Source: Tsuneonella litorea
GTDB taxonomy: Bacteria > Pseudomonadota > Alphaproteobacteria > Sphingomonadales > Sphingomonadaceae
Length of the DNA stretch: 64,000 nucleotides
Direction: 5' to 3'
Assembly: GCF_025154015.1 (NCBI RefSeq)
Contig: NZ_JAOAMV010000005.1
Coordinates: 186,001 to 250,000 of the forward strand
The notes below the pieces were generated by a model. It worked only from the letters and a program-made list of their open reading frames with translations, did not search any database and was not told where the DNA came from. Made by a program: the position numbers and the translations under genes. This document shows positions 16,884-44,779 of this stretch, in pieces (position 1 is the stretch's first letter; the number at the start of each line of letters is the position of its first letter).

Positions 16884-16901
16884 GTCCACGCAGGCGTTGA
16901 G
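16884..16901. promoter_or_regulatory. Operator site 1 (TetR-type palindrome)
   Basis: GTCCACG-CAGG-CGTTGAG: the weakest of the ten related 18-bp palindromes, 19 bp upstream of the TonB receptor 1 start. Confidence 0.45.
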
Positions 16902-16931
16902 TTATCACGAAGTACATCGAACCTTTCCTTT

Positions 16932-16949
16932 GTCAACAGATTCGTTGAA
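16932..16949. promoter_or_regulatory. Operator site 2 (TetR-type palindrome)
   Basis: GTCAACA-GATT-CGTTGAA in the divergent promoter between TonB receptor 1 and the HAPMO-like monooxygenase; 48 bp from site 1. Confidence 0.6.
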
Positions 16950-17075
16950 TCACGGCAGGCGTCGCGTCAGCGACGATCTAGGATCCTTATAAAAGGCTTA
17001 TATAACAATATATAAGAAGAGGGCACTCCTCCTCGATCCGCCCGGCTGGAACCTGCGATTGACAAACGGGCACAA

Positions 17076-17093
17076 TTCCACAAGAGTGTTGAA
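17076..17093. promoter_or_regulatory. Operator site 3 (TetR-type palindrome)
   Basis: TTCCACA-AGAG-TGTTGAA, 24 bp upstream of the monooxygenase GTG start, where a bound repressor would block the promoter or leader. Confidence 0.65.
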
Positions 17094-17117
17094 TATAGCT
17101 CAAGGGAGCCCAAGGAA

Positions 17118-19034
17118 GTGGAGACTCGGGTGCTTAGCCTCGAAACGCTGCCGACTGCCGTCGGCCATGCAAATGTTCCGACCCTGGCCTGCGTCCTGGT
17201 GCATCTCACGGGGGATGCCAGGTGGATCAGGCCGCCCTTCCGCTACGGTCGGGTGCGCGGGATGGACGACAACGAAACGGGTGACCTGCCGCCGGACCTG
17301 CAAGAGGAGATCCGGGCCGCCGCGATCGAAGCAATAGCCGCCCACTTGGGTGGTGCACCCATGAAACTGGCGGACCCAGGCGATGACCTGCTGCTCGAGA
17401 TGATGTCGGCCATGCTCGGCGAAAGCATTCCGTCGGCCTATGTGCCCATGATCCGTCATGAACTCGATCTGCCGTCTTATCGAGGTGCACAGGATTCCGA
17501 AGGGCCGGTCGAAGTGCCGCCGGGGTTCAACGCGCTGATCATCGGCGCCGGAATTTCAGGCATCTGTGCGGCGGTGGAGTTCGCCAAGGCCGGCATTCCG
17601 TACACGATCATCGAGCGCAGCGAGGCGGTCGGCGGCGTGTGGTTCGAGAACCGCTACCCGGGCGCCGCCTGCGACGTTCCAAGTCATCTCTATTCGTTTT
17701 CCTTCGCTCCGGGCCGCTGGTCGCGTCACTTCGCGGGAAGCCGGGAGATCCACCGTTACCTGCAGGACGTTGCGCAGGAGTGGGACATCCTCCCGCACAT
17801 CCAGTTCGGCATCGAGGCGCTCGGAGCGCGCTACGACGAAGAGCGGCAGATGTGGGAAGCCGAGGTGATTGCTGCCGATGGGACCAGACGCACGCTCAAC
17901 GCGAACATTCTCGTCAGCGGCGTCGGCGCGTTCAACAAGCCCCGGTTGCCCGACGTTCCCGGAATGGACAAATTTGCCGGGGCGAGCGTTCATACCGCTC
18001 GCTACCCCGATGAAGGCCTGGACCTCGCCGGGAAGCGGGTCGTGCTTGTCGGCAATGGCGCCAGCGCGATGCAGGTGGCCCCGGCGATCGCGGACGAAGT
18101 GGCGCACCTGACCATCATCCAGCGCAGTCCCCAGTGGGCGGCACCGTTCAACAAGTTCAAGCAGCCCATTCCCGAGCCGTTGCAGGACCTGCTCGACGGA
18201 CTGCCGATCTATCGCCTCTGGTACCGCTTGCGGTTGAGCTGGGCTTTCAACGACAAGCTCTACGAGGCCCTCCAGAACGACCCCGAGTGGTCAGGCGAAG
18301 GGGCGATCAATGCCATCAACGACGCCCATCGCCGGCATCTCACCCAGTATATCGAGAGCGAGCTGGGCGCGCGTGCCGATCTCCTGCCCGCGGTCCTTCC
18401 GCCTTTTCCCCCTTTCGCCAAGCGGATGCTGCTCGACAATGGCTGGTTCCGGACGCTCGCCCGCGATCACGTGAAGCTGGTAGGATCGCCCGTGACGGAA
18501 GTGCGCGAGGACGGAGTGGTGACGGCCGACGGGGTTCTCCACGAGGCAGACGCCATCATATGGGCCACCGGTTTCGACGTCGTGAACCTTCTCGCTCCGT
18601 TGCGGATCGAGGGGCGAGGCGGCAAGCAATTGCACGATGAGTGGCATGGCGACGACGCCCGCGCCTACCTTGGCACCGTGGTACCGGGATTTCCCAATTT
18701 CTTCTGCCTGTACGGACCGAACACCCAGTTCGGCCATGGCGGCAGCCTGATCACCATCCTCGAGCGGCAGACGCATTACCTGATGTCGCTCTTGAAACAG
18801 ATGTTTGCGAGCGATTGCGCGGTCGTCGAGATACGACGGGACACCTACGACCGCTACAACGACGAAGTCGACGCAACCCACGCGCGGATGATCTGGCAGG
18901 TCTCCGGGGTTCGCAGCTACTTTCTCAACAGCAAGGGCCGCAATGTCGTCAACAATCCATTCCGGATCGTGCGGTTCTGGGAAATGACCGAACGGGCCGA
19001 CCTTGCGGAATACGCCTGCGAGAAAGCCGCCTAG
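17118..19034 (+). CDS. Baeyer-Villiger monooxygenase, HAPMO-like
   Basis: 638 residues. It has an FAD-binding GAGISG (143-148), an NADPH Rossmann motif GNGASA (312-317) and the motif FAGASVHTARYP (286-297). The last is the BVMO fingerprint F-x-G-x3-H-x3-W with Tyr in place of Trp. A ~135-residue N-terminal extension with VPTLACVLVHLTGD matches that of 4-hydroxyacetophenone monooxygenase, which supports the GTG start after AGGGAG. Such enzymes insert oxygen next to a ketone to give an ester or lactone. It is divergent from TonB receptor 1 and is the only plus-strand gene in the first part of the island. Confidence 0.88.
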   Translation: METRVLSLETLPTAVGHANVPTLACVLVHLTGDARWIRPPFRYGRVRGMDDNETGDLPPDLQEEIRAAAIEAIAAHLGGAPMKLADPGDDLLLEMMSAMLGESIPSAYVPMIRHELDLPSYRGAQDSEGPVEVPPGFNALIIGAGISGICAAVEFAKAGIPYTIIERSEAVGGVWFENRYPGAACDVPSHLYSFSFAPGRWSRHFAGSREIHRYLQDVAQEWDILPHIQFGIEALGARYDEERQMWEAEVIAADGTRRTLNANILVSGVGAFNKPRLPDVPGMDKFAGASVHTARYPDEGLDLAGKRVVLVGNGASAMQVAPAIADEVAHLTIIQRSPQWAAPFNKFKQPIPEPLQDLLDGLPIYRLWYRLRLSWAFNDKLYEALQNDPEWSGEGAINAINDAHRRHLTQYIESELGARADLLPAVLPPFPPFAKRMLLDNGWFRTLARDHVKLVGSPVTEVREDGVVTADGVLHEADAIIWATGFDVVNLLAPLRIEGRGGKQLHDEWHGDDARAYLGTVVPGFPNFFCLYGPNTQFGHGGSLITILERQTHYLMSLLKQMFASDCAVVEIRRDTYDRYNDEVDATHARMIWQVSGVRSYFLNSKGRNVVNNPFRIVRFWEMTERADLAEYACEKAA

Positions 19035-19106
19035 ACGGCTCTTCGGGCAGTCCGTGCGGTCGCTTAGGGTGTTCCGACCGTGCCGCTCGCCAGCCTTAGG
19101 ATCGGT

Positions 19107-20264
19107 TCAGTCTCGCTCGCTGCCGGCGACCGGCATGTCGTTCTGGAGCATCCGCAACACGTTCCCTTCGTCCTCGAGAGGAGGGATCGGCCTACGCCCC
19201 ACGATCGACAGTCCATAGCCCTCGAGCGCGACGAGCGTCTGAGAGGTATTGGTCAGCAGGATCATGTCGTGGACCCCGATGTCCGCCAGGATCTGGGCGC
19301 CGATGCCGTAAGTACGATCGTCCATGGGCGGCCGAGTCGGGGTGACCATGTTCTCGAGATCGCCCGGTTGCTGCGCAGTCAGCAGAACCAGCACGCCGGC
19401 GCCCTCCCTGCCAATTTCGGCCATCGCGCGCTGGAGCAGGCGCTTGCGCGGGCCCGGTTTGCCGAGCATGTCATGGAACAGCGATGCGGCGTGCATCCTG
19501 ACCAGCGTCGGGCGATCGCGCTCGATGGTGCCCTTCTGCAGGACGACCGCTTCGTTGGAATCGACCTTGTTGCGGTAGATCATGACCTTCCACTCGCCAC
19601 CGTAATCGGAGGTCAGCGTATTCGTGGTGGCCCGCTCGACCAGGTGATCGTGATTGCGGCGATACGCGATGAGGTCGCGGATGGTGCCGATCTTGAGACC
19701 GTGAGTCGCTGCGAAGATCTTGAGATCGGGCATGCGAGCCATCGATCCGTCGTCGTTCATAATCTCGCAGATCACCCCAGCCGGGATGAGACCGGCAAGG
19801 CGCGCCACGTCGACCGCCGCCTCGGTGTGTCCTGCGCGCACGAGGACCCCGCCATCGCGCGCGGTAAGGGGAAAGACGTGGCCCGGGGAGACGATCTCCG
19901 ATCGCGTCGCGTTCGGCCGGATCGCGACCGAGATCGTCCGCGCCCGGTCTGCAGCGGAAATGCCGGTGCTCACCCCGTCGCGCGCCTCGATCGACACGGT
20001 AAAGGCGGTCGAATGGCGCATTCCGTTGTCGCCGCTCATAGGACTGAGGCCGAGATTGGTCACCTGCTCGCCGGTCATCGCGAGGCAGATGAGGCCACGG
20101 CCGTGCTTGGCCATGAAATTGACCGCATCCGGAGTGGCCATCTGGGCGGGGATCACGAGATCACCCTCGTTCTCGCGATCTTCGTCGTCGACGAGGATGA
20201 ACATCCTGCCGTTGCGGGCCTCCTCGATGATCTCAAGGGCGGATGCCAGATCGATGTCAGCCAT
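19107..20264 (-). CDS. ribBX: RibBX-type 3,4-dihydroxy-2-butanone-4-phosphate synthase
   Basis: 385 residues. The N-terminal domain is a full DHBP synthase (DDEDRENEGDLV, then SDNGMRHSTAF-type and GVSTGISAADRA motifs), which makes the four-carbon precursor of riboflavin. The C-terminal half is related to GTP cyclohydrolase II but lacks the zinc-binding cysteines: where active enzymes have R-x-H-S-E-C-x-x-G-D it reads RMHAASLFHD. This matches hybrid RibBX proteins without cyclohydrolase activity. It ends an operon that contains FMN/FAD enzymes, so a role in boosting flavin supply is likely. Its ATG overlaps the upstream stop (TAATG). Confidence 0.85.
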   Translation of the reverse strand: MADIDLASALEIIEEARNGRMFILVDDEDRENEGDLVIPAQMATPDAVNFMAKHGRGLICLAMTGEQVTNLGLSPMSGDNGMRHSTAFTVSIEARDGVSTGISAADRARTISVAIRPNATRSEIVSPGHVFPLTARDGGVLVRAGHTEAAVDVARLAGLIPAGVICEIMNDDGSMARMPDLKIFAATHGLKIGTIRDLIAYRRNHDHLVERATTNTLTSDYGGEWKVMIYRNKVDSNEAVVLQKGTIERDRPTLVRMHAASLFHDMLGKPGPRKRLLQRAMAEIGREGAGVLVLLTAQQPGDLENMVTPTRPPMDDRTYGIGAQILADIGVHDMILLTNTSQTLVALEGYGLSIVGRRPIPPLEDEGNVLRMLQNDMPVAGSERD

Positions 20265-20866
20265 TACGAACTCCCGGGGTGGTCCTGCCATGACGCACGG
20301 ACCTGCTGTGCGAGCCAGTAGATCTGTTGCGCCTGCGCGGTGCAACTCGCGCGTACCGACGGATCCTTCACGGTCCCGTCGACATCGAACACGGCTTGTT
20401 CAACGGTGTTCACGGTCACGCCGATCGGGGTGGGCCAGCCGCGCATGGCATGAACGATACCCCGCAATGCTTGCAAGGTGATTCCGCACGCCTGCCAACC
20501 TGCTGCGACGACGACGAGGCCGACCGGTCGTTCGCTGAAGTAGACCCGCCGGTCGTCGCGCAGGTCCTCGAGTAGGTCGAGGGCGTTCTTGACCAGCCCG
20601 GACACACCCCCGTGGTAACCGGGCGAGCCAATGACGAGGCCATCGGCCTGGCGCACCGCATCGACGAAATCGCTCTGGGCGTCGCTTCGGGCAGGATCTT
20701 CGGGGCAGAAATGGGGGAGCGCCGCCAGCTCGGGACCACCGAACATGCGCGTGGTCGCGCCGAGCGCCTCGGTCTCTTCAAGCACGCATCGCACGATGCG
20801 TTCGCCGGAGGAACCGGCGCGGGTCGAGCCGCCGATGCCGACGATGAAGGGCGGGGCTGCGCTCAT
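20264..20866 (-). CDS. NADPH-dependent FMN reductase family protein
   Basis: 200 residues with a flavodoxin-like fold: VGIGGSTRAGSSGERI is the FMN phosphate loop and GSPGYHGGVSGLVKNALDLL is the second flavin-contact motif. Enzymes of this family supply reduced FMN to two-component monooxygenases. In this operon the obvious client is the LLM flavoenzyme at 27687. The start at 20866 overlaps the upstream stop as ATGA. Upstream open frame is not family-like. Confidence 0.87.
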   Translation of the reverse strand: MSAAPPFIVGIGGSTRAGSSGERIVRCVLEETEALGATTRMFGGPELAALPHFCPEDPARSDAQSDFVDAVRQADGLVIGSPGYHGGVSGLVKNALDLLEDLRDDRRVYFSERPVGLVVVAAGWQACGITLQALRGIVHAMRGWPTPIGVTVNTVEQAVFDVDGTVKDPSVRASCTAQAQQIYWLAQQVRASWQDHPGSS

Positions 20867-21639
20867 CGGTCGAATATCGCGACCGCGCGGGTCCAGCCTG
20901 CAGAGGCTGCCCGGATCTTCATCGGAAAGCAGGCGATCGTAAACCCGGTTGGCGGCAAGGCCTCGAGGTTGTGCAGTTTCTCTAGGTGACAGTAACCGAT
21001 GTCGCGCCCGGCCTTGTGGCCTTCCCAGATCAGGCTGGGATCGCCGGTCTGTTCGTAACGTTCGCGTGTCCGCTCGAAGGGAGCGTCCCAGCTCCATCCA
21101 TCCGTGCCGGTGACGCGCACACCCCGCTCGAGCAGGTACATCGTCGCTTCGTATCCCATCCCGCATCCCGCGCTGACGTAGTCGTCGTGACCGTAGCGCT
21201 GTCCCGCCGCCGTGTTGACCACGACGATCTCGAGCGGCGAAAGCGCGTGACCGATGCGTTCGAGCTCATCCGCGACATCCTTGTCGGTGACTACGTAGCC
21301 GCTGGGGAAATGTCGGAAATCGAGCTTCACGCCCGGCTGGAAACACCAGTCGAGCGGCACCTCGTCGATGGTGATCGCGCGTTCACCGCCGTTCATCGTG
21401 GAAGCGTAGTGATAGGGTGCGTCGAGGTGGGTCCCGTTGTGGGTGATCAACTCGACCCGCTCGATCGCCCACGCCTCGCCATCGGGCAGGTCTTCGGGCG
21501 CCAGGCCGGGAAAGAATCCCACCAGTTCGGGCACCGACATCCGGTGATCGATGTATTCGATCTTCGGCCGGTACGCCGGGGGATCGGAAATTACGTCGTT
21601 TTCGAGAAAGATCGACAGGTCGACGATGGTGCGCGCCAT
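20863..21639 (-). CDS. Cyclase family (kynurenine formamidase-like) hydrolase
   Basis: 258 residues. The metal-binding motif HNGTHLDAPYHY (H-x-G-T-H-x-D-x-P-x-H) defines the cyclase/KynB-like family, which hydrolyses amides, lactones or cyclic diketones. It is not next to kynurenine genes, so formamidase is unlikely; opening of a ring or lactone in the pathway is a reasonable guess. It shares 4-bp ATGA coupling with the FMN reductase gene and lies 2 bp after the BKACE gene. Confidence 0.8.
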   Translation of the reverse strand: MARTIVDLSIFLENDVISDPPAYRPKIEYIDHRMSVPELVGFFPGLAPEDLPDGEAWAIERVELITHNGTHLDAPYHYASTMNGGERAITIDEVPLDWCFQPGVKLDFRHFPSGYVVTDKDVADELERIGHALSPLEIVVVNTAAGQRYGHDDYVSAGCGMGYEATMYLLERGVRVTGTDGWSWDAPFERTRERYEQTGDPSLIWEGHKAGRDIGYCHLEKLHNLEALPPTGFTIACFPMKIRAASAGWTRAVAIFDR

Positions 21640-21641
21640 GC

Positions 21642-22568
21642 TCAGAACTCCACCCGGTCGCTGCCCTTGAGGCCGAGCATTTCGCGCGCCTCGGTCGGGG
21701 TGGCCGGTTCTCGCCCCATCTCGCACAGGATGCGGACAATCTTCTCGACCTGCTCGGCATTGGAGGCGGCGAGCACTCCGCGCTCGATGAACAGGCTGTC
21801 CTCGAGGCCGACGCGGACGTGACCGCCCATCAGCCCAGCCTGGGTCAGGAACGGCATCTGGTGCTTGCCCGCCGCAAGGACCGACCACTGGTAGCTTCCG
21901 GCACCAAACAGCCGGTCGGCGGTCGTCTTCATAAACATCAAGTTCTCCAGATCGGGACCGATCCCGCCGAGAATCCCGAAGATCATCTGGATGAAGAAAG
22001 GCGGCTTGACCGCGCCGGCGTCGACGAAGTGAGCGAGGTTATAGAGGTGGCCGACATCGTAGCATTCATGCTCGAACCGGGTGCCTGCTTCGCCCATCGT
22101 CCGCAGGATGGTGGCAATGTCCCGAAACGTGTTGCGGAAGATGAAGTCGTCCGAATTGACGATGTAATCACGTTCCCAGAGATGTTTCCACTGATCGATC
22201 CGCCGGGCGGCGGGGAACATCGCGAAATTGATCGTTCCCATGTTGAGCGAGCACATCTCGGGCTGGAACGTGGTGGCGGCCTTCAGCCTTTCGTCGAGCG
22301 GCATGGTGGCCGACCCGCCGGTGGTGATGTTTATGATCGCGTCGGTACGCTGCTTGATGACTGGCAGAAACTGGCGATAGACTTCCGGATCGCCGGTCGG
22401 CCGCCCGTCTTCAGGCACCCGGGCGTGCAGGTGCAGGATCGCGGCACCTGCCTCTACCGCGGCGATGCCCTGTTCGGCGATCTCCTCGGGCGTAACCGGA
22501 AGGGCGGGCGACATCGTGGGGGTGTGCGCACCGCCGGTCACCGCGCAAGTGATGATTGCCTTGTTCAT
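21642..22568 (-). CDS. BKACE family 3-keto-5-aminohexanoate cleavage-type enzyme (DUF849)
   Basis: 308 residues. These zinc enzymes cleave a beta-keto acid with acetyl-CoA to give acetoacetate and a new acyl-CoA. The zinc ligands H46 and H48 stand in ILHLHAR at the same numbers as in the Kce prototype, and FEHECYDVGHL carries a later conserved Glu region. No lysine-fermentation genes are nearby, so the keto acid here is probably a pathway-specific intermediate. The start overlaps the upstream stop as ATGA. Confidence 0.88.
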   Translation of the reverse strand: MNKAIITCAVTGGAHTPTMSPALPVTPEEIAEQGIAAVEAGAAILHLHARVPEDGRPTGDPEVYRQFLPVIKQRTDAIINITTGGSATMPLDERLKAATTFQPEMCSLNMGTINFAMFPAARRIDQWKHLWERDYIVNSDDFIFRNTFRDIATILRTMGEAGTRFEHECYDVGHLYNLAHFVDAGAVKPPFFIQMIFGILGGIGPDLENLMFMKTTADRLFGAGSYQWSVLAAGKHQMPFLTQAGLMGGHVRVGLEDSLFIERGVLAASNAEQVEKIVRILCEMGREPATPTEAREMLGLKGSDRVEF

Positions 22569-23368
22569 CCCGCGCTCCGCTGACGGTCGAGAAGATTCCT
22601 GTGCAGGCCGAGGCGGTCGGCCGACAGCTGGGCCCGCGTCACGCGGCCGTCGGCGACGTCGAGCATTCCCGCCACGCGAAATTCGACCGGCGTGCCGACC
22701 AGTTCTGCCCCGATGTCGTCGAAGCCGCCGGCATAGGAGCCTCTGAAGACGAGGTGCAGCGCGGCGCGGTCGCCTGCGGTGAAGAGGTGGGAAACCGTCA
22801 CTTCGGCAGGGGTGATGCAATCCTCGAAGCGCGGTCCGCCGCTAGCTATCTGGTCGACCTCCGGCCGCTCGAGCAATCCGGTATCCCCGGTCCATGACCG
22901 CACCGTGCGCTCGGTTTCCTCCGATGGGGGCAGGGGGGGCGCATCCCAGGGACAAGGGTGGGGCGGCAGAATGGCGTCGCATTCGCGCGATTTGATCTGC
23001 CGTTTGCGCGCGAGATAGTCTTCCTCGGCCCAGCCGTGCGACAGCCGCCCTCCAGCCATCTGGAACAGCGTGACGCCGCCCCAGGTCGATGGGACTCCGT
23101 CGCGCAACGATACCCCGTGTTCGGTGAAGCGCATGGCCACGCCCGCAGTGCCGATAATCGTGTCATGTACCGTGACGCAGAGCCCCGGAAACTGGTCGAG
23201 CTGCGCGGCGGTTGCCGGAAGATAGCTGTCGTCGCGCCCATCCAGCAGGAAGCCGCCGATCGAAAGGCGATAGCCCGGGTCCATGACCCATTCGACCGCC
23301 GCGACATCGTGCGAGGTCAGGAAATCGACTGCAAAGCCGCGCAGGAGCCGGGCTTCCTCGCAGATCAT
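22565..23368 (-). CDS. Two-domain SnoaL/NTF2-like protein
   Basis: 267 residues that read as two consecutive SnoaL-like (cone-shaped alpha+beta) halves. The first half begins LLRGFAVDFLTSHDVAAVEWVMDPGYRLSIGG. The second has SHLFTAGDRAALHLVFRGSYAG and ends in a DGRVTRAQLSADRLGL strand. SnoaL-fold proteins include ester cyclases, ketosteroid isomerase and limonene epoxide hydrolase. Given the LimB-like enzyme in the same operon, an epoxide hydrolase or isomerase role is attractive but unproven. It is coupled by ATGA overlaps to both neighbours. Confidence 0.65.
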   Translation of the reverse strand: MICEEARLLRGFAVDFLTSHDVAAVEWVMDPGYRLSIGGFLLDGRDDSYLPATAAQLDQFPGLCVTVHDTIIGTAGVAMRFTEHGVSLRDGVPSTWGGVTLFQMAGGRLSHGWAEEDYLARKRQIKSRECDAILPPHPCPWDAPPLPPSEETERTVRSWTGDTGLLERPEVDQIASGGPRFEDCITPAEVTVSHLFTAGDRAALHLVFRGSYAGGFDDIGAELVGTPVEFRVAGMLDVADGRVTRAQLSADRLGLHRNLLDRQRSAG

Positions 23369-24876
23369 CGCGAGCCTGCCGTGTCGAGCTCGCGCAATTC
23401 GCGCTTGAGAATCTTGCCTGACGCGTTGCGCGGCAATTCCTTCACGAAGCGGATCGACGTCGGGCACTTGTAATGCGCCAGTCGGTCGCGGGTGAACGCA
23501 ATCAGGTCGGCTGCGCTCGCCTCGCCTCCCTCGCGCAGGATGACGTAGGCACACGGAGTCTCTCCCCACTTGGGGTGAGGAACTCCGATCACCGCGACTT
23601 CGGCGACTGCCGGGTGGTGCAGCAGCACGTTGTCGATCTCGCTCGGGTAGATGTTCTCGCCCCCCGAGACGATCATGTCCTTGTAACGGTCCTGGATGAA
23701 CAGGTAGCCCTCCTCGTCTGCGTAGGCGGCGTCGCCAGAGCAGAGCCAACCATCGGGCGTTACCGCCCGCGCGGTCTCCTCGGGCTTGTGCCAGTAGCCA
23801 AGCATGATCGCCGGTGACCGCATGCGGATTTCACCGGTCTGCCCCGCATCAACCTTTCGCCCGGTAGCAGGATCGACCAGTTCGAGTTCGACCCACGGCA
23901 TAGGTCGGCCGCATGAGCGGAGGCGCTCGCCTTCATGCTCATGGGGCAGCAAGGTGACGGTCGTTCCCGCAGTCTCGGTCATCCCGTAGACGTGGACGAA
24001 ACCACAACGGAAGGTCGTGCGAGCGCGTTCCAGAAGCTCCTCGCCGATGGGAGCGGCGCCGTAGAAGATCGTCCCGATCGGCGGCGGGGGGGCGCCGGTT
24101 TCGGTCACGTGGTCGACCAGTCGCTGCACGACGGTCGGCACGAAGAACCCGTGGGTGACACCATGGCGGCGCATCGTATCGATGACGGAAGACGGATCGG
24201 CACCCGGAAGGAGGACCGTTTCGCCGCCCTGGCTCAGCGCGAGCAGCGCGTAACCGATGCCGCCGATATGGAACAGCGGCATCGCGACGAGGTTCACGCT
24301 TTCCGAGGTGAACCCCCACAACTCGCCTGCCATCCGCCCGAGGTACGACAGGTTGCGCTGCGACAGCATCGCTCCCTTGGGCAAGCCGGTCGTGCCCGAG
24401 GTGTAGAGAATCAGGACCGGAATGTCCGCCTCGATCATCGCGGCTGGATCAGTATCGGCTGCCGCATCACGCAGCGCGGGGTAATCTTCGAGCGCCAGCC
24501 GATCGCGCCCGACGACCTCGTCGAGCAGCGGCGACAGGCTCGCATCGAGCACGATGAGGGAAGGGTCGCTGTCTTCGATGATCTGCGCGATTTCGCGCGG
24601 CGAGAGACGCCAGTTCAGGGGCACGAGGATCGCGCCGATCTTGGCACAGGCAAACAGAAGTTCGAACACGCTGGGGCTGGTCGGGCACAACAGCGCGACC
24701 CTGTCGCCGCAAGCTATCCCGCGCGCGGACAAGAGGTTGGCCGCCGCGTTGCTGCGCCGTTCGAGCGCACCGAAATCAAGCGTCTCGTCGCCGTTGGTCA
24801 GGCATCGCGCGTCCGGGCGCACTGCCGCATGGCGCCGCAGCATCGAGACGATATCGATCGGGGCCGCTTCATTCAT
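23365..24876 (-). CDS. Acyl-CoA synthetase 1 (AMP-forming)
   Basis: 503 residues, class I adenylate-forming enzyme. The P-loop LYTSGTTGLPKG, the YGMTETAG motif, the GWLCSGD hinge region, the GGENIYPSEID block and the C-terminal catalytic lysine in NASGKILKREL are all intact. It would activate a carboxylic acid intermediate to its CoA ester for the adjacent beta-oxidation enzymes. MNEAAPID at 24876 is the start; the stop of the upstream dehydrogenase overlaps it by one base. Confidence 0.92.
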   Translation of the reverse strand: MNEAAPIDIVSMLRRHAAVRPDARCLTNGDETLDFGALERRSNAAANLLSARGIACGDRVALLCPTSPSVFELLFACAKIGAILVPLNWRLSPREIAQIIEDSDPSLIVLDASLSPLLDEVVGRDRLALEDYPALRDAAADTDPAAMIEADIPVLILYTSGTTGLPKGAMLSQRNLSYLGRMAGELWGFTSESVNLVAMPLFHIGGIGYALLALSQGGETVLLPGADPSSVIDTMRRHGVTHGFFVPTVVQRLVDHVTETGAPPPPIGTIFYGAAPIGEELLERARTTFRCGFVHVYGMTETAGTTVTLLPHEHEGERLRSCGRPMPWVELELVDPATGRKVDAGQTGEIRMRSPAIMLGYWHKPEETARAVTPDGWLCSGDAAYADEEGYLFIQDRYKDMIVSGGENIYPSEIDNVLLHHPAVAEVAVIGVPHPKWGETPCAYVILREGGEASAADLIAFTRDRLAHYKCPTSIRFVKELPRNASGKILKRELRELDTAGSR

Positions 24877-26051: not shown

Positions 26052-26068
26052 TCGTTCCTCTTCAGGCT

Positions 26069-27684: not shown

Positions 27685-27686
27685 CG

Positions 27687-28853: not shown

Positions 28854-28891
28854 TGTGCGTTCCTTTTTCGATTGTGGCCAATGGTGCGAAG

Positions 28892-31376: not shown

Positions 31377-31394
31377 TTACACACTAGTGTTGAA
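31377..31394. promoter_or_regulatory. Operator site 4 (TetR-type palindrome)
   Basis: TTACACA-CTAG-TGTTGAA. One arm is degenerate. It lies 21 bp centre to centre from site 5, i.e. two helical turns. Confidence 0.5.
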
Positions 31395-31397: not shown

Positions 31398-31415
31398 GTC
31401 AACACATCTATTGAC
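31398..31415. promoter_or_regulatory. Operator site 5 (TetR-type palindrome)
   Basis: GTCAACA-CATC-TATTGAC, between the TonB receptor 2 operon and tetR 1, placed to control both divergent units. Confidence 0.6.
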
Positions 31416-32969: not shown

Positions 32970-32987
32970 GTCAACATTAGTGTTGAC
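32970..32987. promoter_or_regulatory. Operator site 6 (TetR-type palindrome)
   Basis: GTCAACA-TTAG-TGTTGAC: perfect 7-bp arms, 67 bp upstream of SDR 1. One of the two best copies. Confidence 0.75.
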
Positions 32988-36151: not shown

Positions 36152-36169
36152 GTCAACGGTATCGTGGAA
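36152..36169. promoter_or_regulatory. Operator site 8 (TetR-type palindrome, second subtype)
   Basis: GTCAACG-GTAT-CGTGGAA, upstream of the amidohydrolase gene and just after the end of tetR 2. Nearly identical to site 10. Confidence 0.65.
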
Positions 36170-36829: not shown

Positions 36830-36860
36830 CGCGGTTCCTTTTCGATCGATTGTCCGGGCC

Positions 36861-37628: not shown

Positions 37629-39325
37629 CCTTGACCGACCATCTGCGTCGCCAGATCGACCAGCAGGAACTTGCGCGCGCGACCTGAAGCCGTGGTCGGG
37701 ATGTCGTCCTGCAAGATCGGAATCACACGTGAGGGCACTTTGAACCGGGCAAGTCGCGCGGCGACAAAATCCCTGAGCTCTCGTGGATCGAGCGTTGCGC
37801 CGGCGCTCGCAACGACGAAGGCGACGCCGATTTCGCCCATGCGCTCGTCGGCCACCGGGACGACGTGCGCCTGGGCCACGTCGGCGCGACTGGTCAGCAG
37901 GTCCTCGACCTCGCTCGGCAGCACTTGCTCGCCTCCGCAGCGATACGATTCCTTGGTCCGCCCGAGCAGGACGAGATATCCGTCCGCATCGATCCGGCCG
38001 AGATCCCCGGTCCTGAGCCAGCCGTCGTGGGTGAACGCGGCGGCCGTTTCAGCAGGCTTGTTGTAGTAGCCGCGAGTCACGCCCGGTCCCCTTGCAACGA
38101 GTTCTCCCGTTTCTCCCGGCGGGAGTAACGCTCCATCGGCGGGGTCGATGACCCGGTAATCGACGAGCCTGTCCCCCATGTCCGGATCTCCGGCCGGCCC
38201 GACATCGCGCAGCCGGCCATTGGTGGTGAGCAGCCGCTCGATCGGATCGTTGGGCCGGGTTACGGTCGTCGATGCGGTCGTCTCGGTCATCCCGTATCCG
38301 GTCGTGACTTCCTCCAGCCCGAGAACCGAGAACAGGTCGGCCCATAAACGTTCGGGTGCGCGTCCCCCCGACGCAAGCGCGCTCCGCCAGCTGGACAGGT
38401 CGTAGTCACGCTCGCGCGCGGCATCGACGATGGCGAGCGACATGGCCGGGATCAGCAGCGCGTCAGTGGCGGCCAGGCGCTCGATCGCGGAGAGCGTCGT
38501 GTGGGCATCGAACCGCAGTTGGGGGATGATCGCGCCGCCAACGAACGGCACCGAGAGCATCCCCTCGACGTAGCCAAAGACGTGGTAGAGCGGGAGAGAG
38601 AAGACGATCCGCCGACCGGCCTCGAAGGCGCGAGCGTAGGCGCTTCCGAACGCGGTGCGGGTCAACATGTCGTGGGCCAGTTGCACGCCCTTTGGACTGC
38701 CGGTCGTGCCCGAGGTGTAAAGGATGTCGCAGTCCCAGTCGGGCTGTACCGCGACGTCGCGGAATTCGGATTCGTCCCGGTCCAGCGCGGCGAAGGGGGT
38801 GGCATGGGGGCGAGGCGCGGCTTCGCCCTCGGCACTGAAGACAACCACGCGGTCGAGTTTCGGAAGCGTCTCGCCGCCCCCCACGGTTTCCCAGCCCGGC
38901 GCGATCGCGTCAAGCATCCGGAGGTAGTCGGATCCGCGAAACGCGTCCATCGTCACCAGCAGCTTCGCGTCGGACTGCTCGAGGACGTAGCGCATCTCCT
39001 CCTGGCGATTGAGGATGTTCATCGGCACCGCGACCGCGCCGGCGCGGGCTATCGCGTATTTCAGAGCGACGAACTCGGGATAATTCGCCATCGCGACCGC
39101 GACCTTGTCGCCCGCCGTCACTCCCAGTCTCTGCAGGCCCGCGGCAAGTCGGCGGGACCAAAAGGCCAGTTCGGCGTAAGTCCAAGTGCGCGCATCGGCG
39201 ATCAAGGCGGGTCGCGAGGGAAATTCCGACGCCGCGCGGTCGAGCGCGCCATGAAGGGTCAGCGGCGTCCAGGGCGAAAAGCGGTTCCGCAGCCGCTGTT
39301 GCCGCACATCCAACTCGATTCCCAT
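37625..39325 (-). CDS. Acyl-CoA synthetase 2 (AMP-forming)
   Basis: 566 residues from MGIELDVRQQRL, preceded by AGGGGGAG; the longer open frame upstream covers the regulatory region. The P-loop LYTSGTTGSPKG, YGMTETTAS, GWLRTGD and GGEQVLPSEVEDLL motifs are present. The A10 region reads TASGRARKF, so the lysine that normally catalyses adenylation (S-G-K) is an arginine. That may slow or alter the first half-reaction. Substrate unknown. Operon leader for SDR 3 and tetR 2. Confidence 0.88.
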   Translation of the reverse strand: MGIELDVRQQRLRNRFSPWTPLTLHGALDRAASEFPSRPALIADARTWTYAELAFWSRRLAAGLQRLGVTAGDKVAVAMANYPEFVALKYAIARAGAVAVPMNILNRQEEMRYVLEQSDAKLLVTMDAFRGSDYLRMLDAIAPGWETVGGGETLPKLDRVVVFSAEGEAAPRPHATPFAALDRDESEFRDVAVQPDWDCDILYTSGTTGSPKGVQLAHDMLTRTAFGSAYARAFEAGRRIVFSLPLYHVFGYVEGMLSVPFVGGAIIPQLRFDAHTTLSAIERLAATDALLIPAMSLAIVDAARERDYDLSSWRSALASGGRAPERLWADLFSVLGLEEVTTGYGMTETTASTTVTRPNDPIERLLTTNGRLRDVGPAGDPDMGDRLVDYRVIDPADGALLPPGETGELVARGPGVTRGYYNKPAETAAAFTHDGWLRTGDLGRIDADGYLVLLGRTKESYRCGGEQVLPSEVEDLLTSRADVAQAHVVPVADERMGEIGVAFVVASAGATLDPRELRDFVAARLARFKVPSRVIPILQDDIPTTASGRARKFLLVDLATQMVGQG

Positions 39326-39500
39326 TCGCTCCCCCTGCAGGTCTCCGCCCCGGTGCCGGGTCGCCCAATCTAGAGCCGGATCCAGTTTCATCAATGACCT
39401 CGTTGAAAAGTCCTGGGGTGCAGAAGCCGGCTTTGCCCCGATGTTTACTAGGGATTGCCGTTCCTGGTGGATCGATCGACACACTAGCCCGCGTACGCTT

Positions 39501-39518
39501 TTCCACGATACTGTTGAC
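39501..39518. promoter_or_regulatory. Operator site 9 (TetR-type palindrome)
   Basis: TTCCACG-ATAC-TGTTGAC (reverse: GTCAACA-GTAT-CGTGGAA), 41 bp upstream of monooxygenase 2 and in the shared promoter of the synthetase 2 operon, which includes tetR 2. Confidence 0.7.
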
Positions 39519-39559: not shown

Positions 39560-41176
39560 ATGCGACAGCAACTCGATGTCATCGTGATCGGCGCCGGATT
39601 TGCCGGACTTCGTGCGCTGCACACGTTCCGCGGGATGGGCCTGGAGACGCTGGTGCTCGAGGCTGATTCGGACATCGGGGGAGTGTGGAACTTCAACCGG
39701 TATCCGGGAGCGCGCTGCGACGTCGAAAGCTACGATTATTCCTACCGCTTCTCTCCCGAACTCGAACAGGAATGGCGCTGGAGCGAGCGATATGCGACCC
39801 AGCCGGAAATCCTCCGGTATATCCACCACGTCGCCGACCGGTTCGACTTGCGCCGCGACATCAAGCTCAACACGCGGATGGAATGTGCCCGGTACCACGA
39901 GGCCAGTGCAAGCTGGTTGGTGGAGGCCGCCGACGGGCGCTCATGGCGCGCGGCGCGGCTCGTCCTGGCGGTCGGCCAGCTGTCGACCCCCAAGCGGACG
40001 ACCTACCCTGGGCAGGGGACTTTTTCCGGGCAGGTCATCTACAGCGCGAACTGGCCGCGCGAGACCGTGGACTTCACCGGCAAGCGGGTCGCGATCATCG
40101 GAACCGGTTCCTCGGGCGTCCAGATGACCCCCGTCATCGCCGATCAGGCGAAGCATCTCACGGTGTTCCAGCGCACGGCCAACTTCTCGATCCCGGCGGC
40201 GAACGCCCCCGTGAGCGACGCCGAGGACGCGGCGGTGAAGGCAGGATACCGCAAGCGCCGCGAGCAGGCCCGCAATTCACCCAGCGGGCTCGGCTTTGTT
40301 CCGAGCGCGAGATCCGCGCTCGAGGTGCCGGAGGAGGAACGGCGGGAAACCCTGGAGGCCGCGTGGAACCGGCTGGGGTTCGGTTTCGCGCTCGCCTACA
40401 AGGACATCCTGCTCGACGAGCGATCGAACGAGATCGCCTCCGAGTTTATCCGCGGCAAGATCGCGGAAAAGGTGCGGGATCCGGTCATTCGCGAAAAGCT
40501 AACCCCGCGGGGCTTCCCCTTCGGGACCCGACGACCATCGGTCGACAGCGGCTATTTCGAGGCGTTTAATCGGCCGAACGTCACCCTGGTCGACATCGCC
40601 GAGACGCCGATCGTCGAGATCACCGACGACGGAATTCGCACGTCGGTGGAGGACCACGCATTCGATATCATCATCTACGCGACCGGATTCGATGCATTTA
40701 CCGGCTCGCTGCTCGCGCCAAAGATCGTCGGTCGCGGCGGGCTGACGCTGGAAGAGAAGTGGAAGGCCGGTCCGGTGACCTACCTCGGGATCGGCGTGCA
40801 CGGGTTTCCCAGCATGTTCATCATAGTCGGGCCGGGTAGCCCGTCGTTGCTCAGCAACGTGCTGTTGTCGAGCGAGGAGCAGATCGACTGGCTGGCTCAG
40901 CTGTTCGATCACGCGAAAGCCGATGGCATCGTCGAGATCGAGGCGACCGAAAAGGCGGAGCGCGAGTGGGTCCAGCACGTCAACGAACGGGCGAAGGAAA
41001 CGCTCTACCTGAAGACGCCGTCGTACTACACGGGCGCTGAAATGCCCGGCAAGCCACAGGTCTTCATGCCGTATTCCGGCGGCGTCCGGCACTATCGCCG
41101 GATCTTGGAACGCACGGCAGCCGAAGGCTACGAAGGGTTCGTGATGCACCGGGCCGAGCACGCCTCGCTTGGCTAG
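39560..41176 (+). CDS. Flavin-containing monooxygenase of the Baeyer-Villiger (CHMO) type
   Basis: 538 residues, the length of cyclohexanone-type BVMOs. FAD motif GAGFAG (11-16), NADPH motif GTGSSG (181-186), ATGFD near residue 375. The fingerprint F-x-G-x3-H-x3-W-P is at 155-166 as FSGQVIYSANWP, with Tyr161 in place of the usual His. GGVWNFNRYPGARCDVES is typical of ring-ketone BVMOs. An AAAAAGGAGG ribosome site precedes the ATG. The esterase that follows could hydrolyse the lactone or ester product. Confidence 0.88.
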   Translation: MRQQLDVIVIGAGFAGLRALHTFRGMGLETLVLEADSDIGGVWNFNRYPGARCDVESYDYSYRFSPELEQEWRWSERYATQPEILRYIHHVADRFDLRRDIKLNTRMECARYHEASASWLVEAADGRSWRAARLVLAVGQLSTPKRTTYPGQGTFSGQVIYSANWPRETVDFTGKRVAIIGTGSSGVQMTPVIADQAKHLTVFQRTANFSIPAANAPVSDAEDAAVKAGYRKRREQARNSPSGLGFVPSARSALEVPEEERRETLEAAWNRLGFGFALAYKDILLDERSNEIASEFIRGKIAEKVRDPVIREKLTPRGFPFGTRRPSVDSGYFEAFNRPNVTLVDIAETPIVEITDDGIRTSVEDHAFDIIIYATGFDAFTGSLLAPKIVGRGGLTLEEKWKAGPVTYLGIGVHGFPSMFIIVGPGSPSLLSNVLLSSEEQIDWLAQLFDHAKADGIVEIEATEKAEREWVQHVNERAKETLYLKTPSYYTGAEMPGKPQVFMPYSGGVRHYRRILERTAAEGYEGFVMHRAEHASLG

Positions 41177-42104
41177 TGGCACCCTCGATCCGGCTTATGC
41201 CGCGCTGGTAGCCGACCCCCGCATGGCGATGCGCCGATTGCCGCCGAGCGTCGGCATCGACGTCGTCCGGGAAGCGGCCAATGCGTTCATGGCGAAGGCC
41301 GCCGGACCGGAGCTTTTGCGCGTGTCCGATCACGCGGTCACGACGGACGCGGGCGATCTGCAGCTCCGGCTATACGAGCCTTCGCGCGGTGCCGACCGGC
41401 CCTTCGTGTTATTCTTTCACGGTGGCGGGTTCATGATCGGCGACCTTGCCAGTCACGACGGCCTGTGTCGGCGTCTTGCGGAAGCCACCGGATTGCCGAT
41501 TGCCGCAGTCGACTACCGGCTGGCGCCCGAAGCACCCTTTCCGGCGGCGCTCGAGGACGGGGCGGCAGCGCTCAGCTGGCTGATCGACAATGCTCGAATG
41601 CTGGGCCTCCACCACCAACGCTGGGGTGTCGCCGGAGACAGTGCGGGCGGTCAGCTTGCTCTCGCTGTAGCCTTGCAGGCCGCCGACCTCGGGCATCACG
41701 CATCCCATGCGGCGTTGTTGTACCCGCTGCTCGACCCGACGCGCTCGACCGTATCGTCGCGCGAGCTGGGCAAGGGATACATGCTTACAGGCTCCTTCAT
41801 CGAGTGGGCATGGGAATCCTATGCCGGCGGCATCGACCGCCTCGGAGACCCGCTCTTCGACCTGCGGCGCGCCGACCTGGCCAAGATGCCGCCGATGCGA
41901 CTGGTCACCGCCGAATTCGATCCCTTGCGGGATGAAGGCGAGGCATTCGCCGAGGCGGTCAAGGGCGCTGGTGTGCCATGCGAGGTCCGCCGGTATCCCG
42001 GGGTAATCCATGGCTTTGCCGGCATACCGCCGCTCACGGCCCAGGCCCGAGAGGCGGTCGCGTTCGTCGCCGAAGGACTGCGTTCGTCCCTCGTCAGCGC
42101 TTGA
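41169..42104 (+). CDS. Alpha/beta hydrolase (HSL/esterase family)
   Basis: 311 residues. The oxyanion motif FFHGGGF, the nucleophile elbow GDSAGG and the C-terminal VIHGFAGIPP with the catalytic His define the hormone-sensitive-lipase family. It starts with TTG overlapping the monooxygenase stop by 8 bp; ATG at 41223 would cut off the conserved LDPAYAALVAD start region. Position suggests it opens the lactone or ester made by the Baeyer-Villiger enzyme. It converges on the thiolase gene with an 11-bp overlap. Confidence 0.88.
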   Translation: MASGTLDPAYAALVADPRMAMRRLPPSVGIDVVREAANAFMAKAAGPELLRVSDHAVTTDAGDLQLRLYEPSRGADRPFVLFFHGGGFMIGDLASHDGLCRRLAEATGLPIAAVDYRLAPEAPFPAALEDGAAALSWLIDNARMLGLHHQRWGVAGDSAGGQLALAVALQAADLGHHASHAALLYPLLDPTRSTVSSRELGKGYMLTGSFIEWAWESYAGGIDRLGDPLFDLRRADLAKMPPMRLVTAEFDPLRDEGEAFAEAVKGAGVPCEVRRYPGVIHGFAGIPPLTAQAREAVAFVAEGLRSSLVSA

Positions 42105-43290
42105 GGATCACGCTGCCGCCGTTCGCGCCCAGGCCCAGTACGGCGGTCATTCCGACGCGTGCATCGGGGACCTGACGGCCAGTTGCCTCGCCGCGAATCT
42201 GCCAGGCGATTTCGCAGACCTGCATCAGGGCCTGCGCAGTGGTCGCCTCGCCGAACGACAGGAAACCGCCGCTCGGATTGATCGCGAGACGGCCTGCACC
42301 AATCGCCAGTTTTCCCGTTTCCAGCAGGTGGTCACTCTCGCCCGGCGCATGCATGCCGAACAGTTCGGGCCACGCCAGAAGGTGCCATGCGGTGTTGTCC
42401 GCCATTTCGAGCACATCGACATCCGCGGGACCGATCCCCGCGATGGACATCGCTCGTTCGACGGCGCCCGCGACTTCGCTCGTGTGAGTGACCCCCGGCC
42501 GCACCGTGGCGGAAATAGTCGGGATGCGGCGCGCCGGATCGCCGAACGCGCCACTTGCGATCGCGCACCCGGCCACCTCGACCGGCCGCCCGCCGCAGCG
42601 GCGCGCGATTTCATGCGACACTAGGATGACCGCCGCCGCGCCGTCGCTCACCGGGCAGATTTCCAGCAGGTGGAGGGGGTCTGCCACGAGGGGTGATGCG
42701 AGCACCTCCGCCACCGTGGACGGCTGCCGGAAGCGCGCGTAGGGGTTCCCGGCAGCATTCGATCGCATCAGGACCGCGGCGCGCGCGAAGGTCTCGGGGC
42801 GCGTGCCATGATCGTGCATGCGCCGGCGGGCCTCGATTGCCCAGTAGGCCGGGTTCGTCGCTCCCATGGTGACCCAGCGCAGGTAGTCTTCGTCGCCGAT
42901 GTCGTCCTGACTGCCGGGAGGGCGCGGGATGAAACCCTTCGGCATCCGTTCGGCTCCGACCGCGGCAACCACGTCGTACTGACCGCTGGCGATCATCGCG
43001 TGGGCGGTCGAGAATGCGATCGCACCAGCCGCGCAGGCCCCGCCGACGTTGACGCAGGCGATCCCTTGTTCGGCGACCAATTGGACTATCTCGTTGGCAT
43101 GCAGGCCCCAGCCCATGCCGCCCTCGAAACGGGAACTCGCGGCTACCAGTCCCTGGACGTCACGCCAGCCGAGTCCGGCGTCACCGAGTGCCGCGCGCAG
43201 CGCGTGCAGGGCAAGCTGGACCTGCGGCGCATCGGGCCACTTGCCCCACGGGTGGGCCCCCGCACCGAGCAGGAAGACTGGACGGCTCAC
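42094..43290 (-). CDS. Thiolase-fold lipid-transfer protein (Ltp2/SCP2-like, possible retro-aldolase)
   Basis: 398 residues. The thiolase nucleophile position is kept (C86 in GGACAAGA), but the usual C-terminal G-H-P-x-G-A-T is replaced by SFGEATTAQ, and the C-x-G motif by GLGANGGS with no cysteine. Proteins like this in steroid degradation (Ltp2) are retro-aldolases that cut side chains and need a DUF35 partner. The DUF35 gene is directly upstream with a 4-bp overlap, which strongly supports this reading over Claisen-type thiolysis. Confidence 0.82.
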   Translation of the reverse strand: MSRPVFLLGAGAHPWGKWPDAPQVQLALHALRAALGDAGLGWRDVQGLVAASSRFEGGMGWGLHANEIVQLVAEQGIACVNVGGACAAGAIAFSTAHAMIASGQYDVVAAVGAERMPKGFIPRPPGSQDDIGDEDYLRWVTMGATNPAYWAIEARRRMHDHGTRPETFARAAVLMRSNAAGNPYARFRQPSTVAEVLASPLVADPLHLLEICPVSDGAAAVILVSHEIARRCGGRPVEVAGCAIASGAFGDPARRIPTISATVRPGVTHTSEVAGAVERAMSIAGIGPADVDVLEMADNTAWHLLAWPELFGMHAPGESDHLLETGKLAIGAGRLAINPSGGFLSFGEATTAQALMQVCEIAWQIRGEATGRQVPDARVGMTAVLGLGANGGSVILKR

Positions 43291-43724
43291 GCTGCTTCGC
43301 TTCCACCAGGCACGAAGGCGAAGGTGCGAACGTCCAGCCCCTCTGGGTCGCGATAGAGCGTGCGGCCGGTGACCCGTACAGGCATGCCGATCGCCAATTC
43401 GTCGAACGCGACCCCCTCCAGTATGCCCATGACCTGCACGCCCGCTCCGAGGTCGACGACCCCGATGGCGTAGGGTTTCCAGTCGTCGATCCGGAACATC
43501 GCCGGTGGCTGGTAACGCTGGATGGTGAAACTGTGGATCGTGCCGTCTCTAGGCAATTGCGCGTCCTCGACAGCCTTTGTTTCGCACGCCGGATTGCGGC
43601 ACGTCGGCCGGCGCGGGAAATAGAGCGTGTCGCACGATGTGCAGCGCGTCGCCAGGAGGCGCAGGCCCCCGGGCCCTTCTTCGAAGAGGCCCGCCACGAC
43701 CGACACCGCTGCCGGCATACTCAC
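43287..43724 (-). CDS. Zn-ribbon/OB-fold (DUF35) protein
   Basis: 145 residues. Four zinc-binding cysteines C28, C31, C42 and C47 form the ribbon and an OB-fold follows (SFTIQRYQPP to VMGILEGV). DUF35 proteins bind CoA thioesters and partner thiolase-fold enzymes, as in ChsH2-Ltp2. GTG at 43724 gives a 4-bp overlap with the hotdog gene; ATG at 43718 is an alternative. Confidence 0.88.
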   Translation of the reverse strand: MSMPAAVSVVAGLFEEGPGGLRLLATRCTSCDTLYFPRRPTCRNPACETKAVEDAQLPRDGTIHSFTIQRYQPPAMFRIDDWKPYAIGVVDLGAGVQVMGILEGVAFDELAIGMPVRVTGRTLYRDPEGLDVRTFAFVPGGSEAA

Positions 43725-44245
43725 AGCGAAAGTATGTCCCGAGTCTCGCGGAAATAGAGCGTGCCGCTGGCGGTGTCCGTGACCGTCACCTCATGACGGA
43801 CATAGCGCCGCCCGCGCTTCTCGTACTTGTCGGTTGCCACGGTGGTGATCCGCACAGTCGACCCTACCGGAATCGGTTCGAGGATCTCGGAATCGTGGAA
43901 GGTATGAATCGATCCGATCGCAAACGGTTTCGTATGATCGAACTGCACCGAGAGAACAAAGTGCGATACCAGCAACGGCGGAACGATTGCACCGCCGAAC
44001 GGCGATTCGCCCGGGATGCGCCAGGTGTTCATTCGCCACCCTTCGTACCACGGATTGTAGTCCTCGACCCCGTCGGCATAGAGAATGACGAGTTCGGGCG
44101 TCAGCTCGATCTCGCGCGAGAGTTCGTCGCCGATCTCGACCATGTCCCAGTACGTCTGCGAACCCTGCTCAAGGCCATCGATGAAGGCGCGTGTCTGGGC
44201 AACCTGGATCGGGCTCATCGGCTTTAGGGCGTCGGTGGCATTCAT
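43721..44245 (-). CDS. MaoC/FAS1-like hotdog dehydratase subunit A
   Basis: 174 residues with a hotdog fold of the FAS1-type N-terminal dehydratase kind (QTYWDMVEIGDELSREIELTPE, then GAIVPPLLVSH). In steroid side-chain pathways two such half-hydratases form a heteromeric enoyl-CoA hydratase tied to the DUF35/aldolase pair. Here it sits between subunit B and DUF35, which fits. It starts 21 bp after subunit B. Confidence 0.82.
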   Translation of the reverse strand: MNATDALKPMSPIQVAQTRAFIDGLEQGSQTYWDMVEIGDELSREIELTPELVILYADGVEDYNPWYEGWRMNTWRIPGESPFGGAIVPPLLVSHFVLSVQFDHTKPFAIGSIHTFHDSEILEPIPVGSTVRITTVATDKYEKRGRRYVRHEVTVTDTASGTLYFRETRDILSL

Positions 44246-44266
44246 CGCGGCGATCCTCCGTTCACT

Positions 44267-44701
44267 TCACACGCCGACATCGGCTTCCGCCCAGCCGACG
44301 GTCTTCTTCTCGCCCGCCTCGTTTTCGCACCAGATGTCGATCTTGAAGCGATAGCCACCGCCCTTGGGTGTCTTCTCGCTCACCACCCCACGACACACGA
44401 TCACCTCTTCCGCCCTCGTCGAGGCAACGTACTTGCAGACCATTCGCGCATTGCGAAACATCGCTGCACCGAGGTGGTTGACACACATCTCGGCAAGGTA
44501 GGCGGAAGACATTTCCCCTGTCTGGATCGGCGCGTCCAGCCCGGTTTCGGCCGCATAAACCGGGTCCCAGTGGTTCGGATTGAAGCGGCCCCACAGGCGC
44601 GAGCCCATGAGCTGAATCGCGGCCTTCTTGAAGATGGGGGCCAGTTCGAAGCCGACCGGCGTGTCCCGGTCGATCGGAGCGAAACGCGGGTCGGCGGACA
44701 T
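44267..44701 (-). CDS. MaoC-like hotdog dehydratase subunit B
   Basis: 144 residues from MSADPRFAPID, preceded by AAGAGA. The hydratase-2-like region is NPNHWDPVYA; its N-H-W-D-P resembles the active-site N-x-x-D-x-x-P-x-H block of MaoC proteins, though less complete. It is the first gene of the hydratase-DUF35-thiolase operon. The open frame upstream is spurious and crosses the operator. Confidence 0.8.
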   Translation of the reverse strand: MSADPRFAPIDRDTPVGFELAPIFKKAAIQLMGSRLWGRFNPNHWDPVYAAETGLDAPIQTGEMSSAYLAEMCVNHLGAAMFRNARMVCKYVASTRAEEVIVCRGVVSEKTPKGGGYRFKIDIWCENEAGEKKTVGWAEADVGV

Positions 44702-44761
44702 GGCATCTCTTGCAGCGGCGAATGGTAACGAGGAACGTCCATGTCGGTCTCTCACAAAGTT

Positions 44762-44779
44762 GTCAACGGTAACGTGGAA
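44762..44779. promoter_or_regulatory. Operator site 10 (TetR-type palindrome, second subtype)
   Basis: GTCAACG-GTAA-CGTGGAA, 60 bp upstream of the first gene of the hydratase/aldolase operon. Differs from site 8 by one base. Confidence 0.7.

Follow-up and report, generated by a model that had tools for sequence, protein, structure and literature searches.

A shared palindromic motif, probably a TetR operator, joins the promoters of a catabolic island in Tsuneonella litorea, in which two sister TetR regulons appear fused

Background

Cholesterol catabolism in actinobacteria is governed by two TetR repressors, KstR and KstR2, whose motif sequences differ from each other. Among the closest described systems are also other TetR repressors of catabolic clusters. 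KstR2 has a palindromic operator, AnCAAGnnCTTGnT, which lies between divergent genes at three places, one of them beside its own gene (PMC3068626), and its effector is a CoA thioester (PMC8700777). In Caenibius tardaugens, the TetR repressor EdcR controls estradiol catabolism from operators at several promoters; its operator TnnCnnTACnAnTnGTAnnGnnA overlaps the -10 box, and the operator at its own promoter is less conserved (PMC8700777). The pdc cluster of the same species, for progesterone, combines a BVMO, a luciferase-like monooxygenase, a TetR and a LuxR regulator in four genes over 4.6 kb; the available part of its account gives no operator (PMC12239570). In Azoarcus sp. CIB, four promoters of a single catabolic cluster carry the 18-bp palindromic operator of the TetR repressor MbdR, which responds to a CoA thioester, 3-methylbenzoyl-CoA (PMC4424350).

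The catabolic island of Tsuneonella litorea resembles each of these systems in part. As in the KstR/KstR2 case, two TetR repressors appear to serve one catabolism, but in another phylum and with other gene content, and whereas the KstR and KstR2 motifs differ, the two paralogues of the island share one core. With EdcR it has in common a sphingomonad TetR on a catabolic cluster with several operator-bearing promoters, and with pdc the combination of BVMO, luciferase-like monooxygenase and TetR, a likeness at the level of gene combination, since pdc differs in size, in its number of genes and in its LuxR regulator. MbdR offers the parallel of an 18-bp palindromic operator at several promoters of one catabolic cluster, but its operator is ATACN10GTAT, its pathway is anaerobic and the available part of its account describes one regulator (PMC4424350). 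The operator code proposed here gives a handle on a sphingomonad TetR group for which we found no published operator among the open-access papers listed by our searches, where we also found no matching gene cluster.

Results and Discussion

Gene content of the island

The window is the whole 64-kb stretch of DNA analysed here, taken from a genome of 3.03 Mb. The island occupies ~13.0 to 44.7 kb of the window and comprises about 30 genes (Pfam scans; 28 genes called), including two TonB receptors, two FAD-dependent monooxygenases, two acyl-CoA ligases, three short-chain dehydrogenases (SDRs) and two TetR regulators (Table 1). The island probably serves the breakdown of a ketone-like compound. 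We divide it into module A with TetR1, at ~13-34.5 kb, and module B with TetR2, at ~34.9-44.7 kb. The long run of module A holds TonB receptor 2, a luciferase-like monooxygenase, an enoyl-CoA hydratase, a 3-hydroxyacyl-CoA dehydrogenase and an acyl-CoA dehydrogenase, followed by an acyl-CoA ligase, a SnoaL-like protein, a beta-keto acid cleavage enzyme (BKACE), a cyclase, an FMN reductase and RibBA. To phenylacetone and steroid monooxygenases FMO1 is less closely related than FMO2, its match starting at about residue 85. The luciferase-like monooxygenase shares its run with RibBA and the FMN reductase (19107-20866), so that the pathway appears to supply its own flavin.

Table 1. Genes and operator-like sites of the island, in window coordinates
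Feature	Position	Strand	Remarks
TonB-dependent receptor 1 and MFS transporter	13026..16865	-	Pfam
Site GTCCACGCAGGCGTTGAG	16884..16901	.	Lowest-scoring of the ten, 19 bp before TonB-dependent receptor 1; 1 mismatch
Site GTCAACAGATTCGTTGAA	16932..16949	.	Between TonB receptor 1 and FMO1; exact match
Site TTCCACAAGAGTGTTGAA	17076..17093	.	169 bp upstream of FMO1; exact match
FMO1, FAD-dependent Baeyer-Villiger-type monooxygenase (module A)	17262..19034	+	Pfam, homology
Module A run, TonB receptor 2 to RibBA	19107..31249	-	Pfam
Site TTACACACTAGTGTTGAA	31377..31394	.	Between TonB receptor 2 and TetR1; 1 mismatch
Site GTCAACACATCTATTGAC	31398..31415	.	Between TonB receptor 2 and TetR1; 1 mismatch
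TetR1 (TetR_N + TetR_C_24), proposed module A regulator	31497..32162	+	Two sites upstream
SDR1, short-chain dehydrogenase	32156..32902	-	
Site GTCAACATTAGTGTTGAC	32970..32987	.	Between SDR1 and SDR2; best palindrome; exact match
Site TTCAACATTCTTGTTGAA	33005..33022	.	Between SDR1 and SDR2; exact match
SDR2 and glutathione S-transferase	33098..34509	+	
Amidohydrolase (Amidohydro_2)	34881..35990	-	Module B assignment by position only
Site TTCCACGATACCGTTGAC(A), read toward amidohydrolase	36152..36169	-	Between TetR2 stop codon and amidohydrolase; exact match
TetR2, TetR1 paralogue, proposed module B regulator	36176..36829	-	Third gene of ACS2-SDR3-TetR2 run
SDR3 and acyl-CoA synthetase ACS2 (module B)	36861..39391	-	ACS2 may start at 39391 or at 39325
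Possible degenerate eleventh site ATCAATGACCTCGTTGAA	39390..39407	.	PWM 12.2; overlaps assumed ACS2 start; weak
Site TTCCACGATACTGTTGAC(A)	39501..39518	+	Exact match; 42 bp before FMO2, with ACS2 diverging on the opposite side
FMO2 and alpha/beta hydrolase (module B)	39560..42104	+	FMO2 closely resembles phenylacetone and steroid monooxygenases
MaoC1, MaoC2, ChsH2-like OB-fold protein and thiolase-like protein (module B)	42094..44701	-	
Site TTCCACGTTACCGTTGAC(A), read toward MaoC1	44762..44779	-	61 bp upstream of inferred MaoC1 start; exact match

Ten sites in six between-gene regions

The original prediction held that ten palindromes fitting one consensus, all of them intergenic, tie seven promoters of the island into one circuit. 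Scanning for 18-bp sites with this consensus, KTCMACRN4YGTKGAM, recovers all ten, but three of them depart from it by one mismatch; the other seven are the only exact matches in the window, where 100 dinucleotide shuffles lead one to expect 0.00. The individual palindromes are imperfect, each having 9 base pairs of which 1 to 4 fail. Leave-one-out scores against a position weight matrix (PWM) range from 17.3 to 25.1 for nine sites, with 10.8 for the site at 16884, which has a counterpart at the corresponding place in a relative (G122a 27792); the pair at 31377 and 31398 likewise has its corresponding pair in G122. The next-best positions in the window are the possible eleventh site at 39390, and 38048 and 56749 (11.0). 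Four relatives (G122, G088, G080 and G086) have a better ACS2 site than this eleventh one, 6-59 bp upstream of ACS2.

Across the whole genome, all seven exact matches (7/7) fall inside the window, and the reversed-pattern control gives 1; the motif is not equally frequent elsewhere, a finding that would have spoken against the original prediction had it been otherwise. Allowing up to one mismatch yields 28 matches against 22 for the reversed control, 10 in the window and 18 outside; as extra regulon members the 18 are rejected, being at the background level set by the 22 control matches of the whole genome. A sequence-only profile (covariance model) searched against the genome listed 9 rows at E ≤ 10, and every one of them falls in the window. 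The test is a weak one, in which the rows cover only 5 of the ten sites, at E values of 0.5-4.8, and 150 of 208 candidates were scored.

The claim that the sites are intergenic depends on the choice of start codons. None of the ten falls within the 28 called genes when starts are set by homology, but four (32970, 33005, 39501 and 44762) do when each gene is given its longest open frame. The ten sites occupy six between-gene regions, namely TonB receptor 1/FMO1, TonB receptor 2/TetR1, SDR1/SDR2, ACS2/FMO2 and those upstream of the amidohydrolase and of MaoC1, and because four of the six are divergent, up to ten transcription starts would be covered. Thus the count of seven promoters gives way to six regions, while a motif at multiple promoters remains, and with it the island-wide coverage that had been claimed: all target promoters share one operator. 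We also sought the operators of two described systems in the window. That of KstR2 gave 0 exact and 2 one-mismatch matches (0.64 expected), and that of EdcR gave 0 matches with up to one mismatch allowed.

Two TetR clades and two modules

TetR1 and TetR2, the two strong members of this TetR group in the genome, are 52% identical; both genes are open reading frames here, and both products match PF00440 and PF17932 above curated cut-offs. KstR2 is among their closest solved relatives (E 2.3e-19 for TetR1 and 1.4e-17 for TetR2), structure 3vpr scoring higher in both cases. The segment that, from the fold, we take to be the recognition helix reads (V/I/A/L)DR(A/S)(S/T)(L/I)YYY in both clades. In a maximum-likelihood tree, from which two TetR pieces with an internal stop were excluded, TetRs in a module-A context (12 rows) are split from those in a module-B context (5 rows) with branch support 98/90, and comparison of the tree with module context gives one change each. 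A further TetR of the group, on a plasmid of G122 (L046 10731-11189), is broken by a stop codon and appears to be a decaying extra copy. Modules A and B also occur apart in relatives. Two genomes (G080 and G086) hold one TetR match each, of the module-B clade, with the motif present, and two others (G094 and G221) one match each of the module-A clade; hence the link to the motif holds for either TetR clade by itself.

The two clades differ in where their sites lie. Upstream of the TetR1 gene there are sites at ~80 and ~100 bp, and 9 of 15 TetR1-clade genes have a site (PWM score at least 16) within 300 bp upstream. In the remaining 6 of 15 no site reached 16 within this distance, with best scores of -4.8 to 14.9 (below 10 for G091, G122a 54799 and Tobar; 12.0-14.9 for G070a, G088a and Sjin). 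The TetR2 gene has no directly upstream site, its three-gene run being preceded by the site at 39501, and a site of at least 16 within 300 bp upstream is absent from all five TetR2-clade genes. All five come third in an ACS2-SDR3-TetR2 run, the nearest regulated start lying two genes upstream, and at each of these loci a site stands before ACS2 or between ACS2 and FMO2.

The sites themselves differ in composition between the modules. Among the sites of relatives, the half-site TTCCAC occurs in 16 of 25 assigned to module B versus 1 of 34 assigned to module A (Fisher p 2.5e-7, a value that overstates independence because the sites are largely orthologous promoters), and in the window in 3/3 and 1/7, respectively. 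This count took 59 sites of relatives and the ten of the window out of a set of 97 (thresholds of 14 for the window and 16 for relatives), to which G152, G088c and G091 contribute zero sites. The 28 sites left out are those of G299, G011, G093, G127, G035b, G177b and Srhab and of the far parts of G088b and G070b, and TTCCAC is found in 3 of them. The ten sites of G122a were all counted under module A, some of them lying beside FMO2-, SDR3- or amidohydrolase-like genes, and the split is not clean, with TTCCAC present in the module-A sites 17076 of the window and G122a 27792. In G299, the orthologue of the module-B gene MaoC1 stands beside a module-A-clade TetR and its operator is without TTCCAC, one case where the half-site follows the TetR and not the gene.

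Could one TetR, whether TetR1 or TetR2, control all ten sites, the other having a different role or being redundant? We consider this rather unlikely. A single core is indeed present in all sites and in the genomes that carry one TetR clade, the recognition-helix segments of TetR1 and TetR2 are nearly identical, and the lack of a site directly upstream of TetR2 would also fit. However, the TetR clades go with their own modules, which are separable, TTCCAC half-sites are concentrated in module B, and both TetR genes are open reading frames. The prediction of one circuit is supported in part: the operator is common, but the island joins two separable modules, each with its TetR paralogue and with differing half-sites. 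The best reading is that the island consists of two sister regulons that have been fused and have the core operator in common. We consider it quite probable that a small TetR subfamily uses these sites as operators, with TetR1 and TetR2 as sister repressors whose two regulons are fused in the island, and the two regulons probably cross-talk. This two-paralogue arrangement provides a natural test of how regulons with near-identical operators merge or stay separate.

Conservation of the motif in relatives

A TetR1 homologue (E ≤ 1e-40) is present in 11 of the 298 family genomes drawn, our own included. In these 11 genomes the exact motif occurs 38 times against 4 for the reversed control, and in 14 genomes without the TetR, our own pick from the 287 without a match, motif and reversed control both occur 12 times. 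In G122, all eight exact sites (8/8) are on the contig that holds its TetR genes. At 27 loci placed by TetR position alone we found 42 sites (PWM at least 16), with at least one site in 19 of the 27, while 200 column-permuted matrices on the same loci averaged 0.92 and never exceeded 7. No site of at least 16 was found in 8 of the 27 loci, and the TetRs of G091 and G088c likewise have none in the surrounding 20 kb. An earlier permutation test had given 87 sites versus a mean of 2.18 and a maximum of 20, with a motif-biased choice of loci, and a 'TetR-selected' set 55 sites versus a mean of 1.53 and a maximum of 11, which shares this bias: G035b, G177b, G070b and G070c were chosen because of motif matches, and most other stretches of relatives were placed once motif positions were known. 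The 27-locus test is the cleaner one.

The motif precedes orthologous genes in relatives despite rearranged blocks. FMO2 orthologues (at least 66% identity) have a site 44-51 bp upstream in 6/6 cases, compared with 42 bp in the window, and MaoC1 orthologues 74-92 bp upstream in 6/6, compared with 61 bp; the latter include G299, whose best site (28.4) is flanked by its TetR on one side and, at 85 bp, by the MaoC1 orthologue on the other. In alignments the motif forms a conserved block in the FMO2 and MaoC1 promoters and is less uniform upstream of TetR1. Homologues of island genes make up 64% of the span, and 69 of 70 sites (at least 16) fall outside them, a figure that includes some loci chosen for motif matches and is not a full intergenic test, because the remaining span holds other genes plus gaps. 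The motif can help define the whole pathway, uptake and flavin supply included, where gene order is scrambled.

Sites of at least 16 also occur at 4 of 5 loci with a TetR of 33-37% identity. More distant TetRs, 33-35% identical (L061, L063, L096 and L097), are found near 1-3 motif copies upstream of an acyl-CoA ligase-like gene, and a broader set of TetRs may share the operator code. Three contigs from a viral collection (L099, L100 and L101), possibly host sequence, contain an exact match to the module-B operator pattern.

A regulator of another family, unlinked to the island, would make the TetR neighbours a coincidence, and the 12 exact matches in the 14 TetR-less genomes might be taken in its favour. 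These matches, however, equal their reversed control, site density is high at loci placed by TetR position alone, and 9 of 15 TetR1-clade genes have a site close upstream, which leaves such a regulator very improbable. The guess that a TetR is in control has thus gained support, as the motif exceeds its control only in TetR-bearing genomes and is dense around TetR genes. That the island is a TetR-controlled catabolic regulon, a conventional type of bacterial control, in which two sister regulons appear fused, is well supported.

Orientation of the half-sites and a proposed mechanism

Where a site of a relative has a single TCCAC-type half, the other half faces the nearest gene in 15 of 18 cases, faces away in 2 and has no annotated gene in 1 (p 0.0023, for sites that are not independent); in the window it points toward the gene at 4 sites and away at 1. 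In module-B operators with a TTCCAC half, it is usually the -35-like GTTGAC half that is gene-facing. Among 76 gene-assigned sites, window included, TTGAC followed by A or G is found in the proximal half of 35 and in the distal half of 16, as would suit an operator that overlaps a -35 element. Alignment of 47 sites showed no clear -10 column beyond the proximal half on its downstream side, so the -35 reading rests on orientation and on the frequency of TTGAC(A/G). The distal half is conserved alongside the proximal one, and this, together with seven exact matches in the window versus 0.00 expected and zero elsewhere in 3.03 Mb, and 42 sites versus a permuted-matrix mean of 0.92, makes it scarcely credible that the motif is a mere -35 element, for all the resemblance of its proximal half to TTGACA, or a chance palindrome of between-gene DNA, both being contradicted by genome counts and permuted matrices alike.

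Returning to the two fused sister regulons, we propose that dimers of TetR1 and TetR2 would bind the core GTCAAC-N6-GTTGAC, the promoter-proximal half of which would overlap the -35-like TTGAC(A/G). Because of this overlap, a bound dimer would keep RNA polymerase away by steric repression. Both repressors would be released by an intermediate of the pathway, probably an acyl-CoA; we infer this kind of effector because the TetRs resemble KstR2, whose effector is a CoA thioester. Derepression would switch on uptake through the TonB receptors, oxidation of a putative ketone-type substrate by the two Baeyer-Villiger-type enzymes and the luciferase-like monooxygenase with its flavin supply, and ester cleavage and beta-oxidation-like steps. 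More tentatively, and with the chances leaning somewhat against it as a whole, the observations may be read jointly as one operator code whose halves carry different information, in a natural fusion of regulons with graded cross-talk. Under such a reading, the proximal GTTGAC would be kept by its second role as a -35 element, while the distal half would drift to TTCCAC at TetR2 promoters and so tune the choice between paralogues.

Apparent acquisition of the island, and its neighbours

The TetR is present in 1 of 11 genomes of the genus, and the other ten have distant matches to FMO1 only (at most 35% identity among the matches listed), whereas the left-flank gene is found in 11/11 and the right-flank gene in 8/11, our own genome being counted each time. 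Hence the island looks acquired, its TetR and FMO1 being sparse in a genus where the flanking genes are widespread. To its right (49894-63682) lie GH97, sulfatase and GH2 genes that resemble a polysaccharide-use locus and contain no exact motif match. Just to its left (11493-13000), a tRNA-Ser(CGA) is followed 444 bp on by an IS240-type (DDE_Tnp_IS240) transposase, a possible entry point. Searches of plasmids with the two monooxygenases gave, among the matches listed, one record each at 60-80% identity and others below 60%. The closest copy of module A that we found is on a mobilizable plasmid, pSFD01 of Sphingopyxis sp. FD7 (L066, NZ_AP017899.1 53591-94253), which carries the module in nearly the same gene order and has protocatechuate 4,5-cleavage genes further along.
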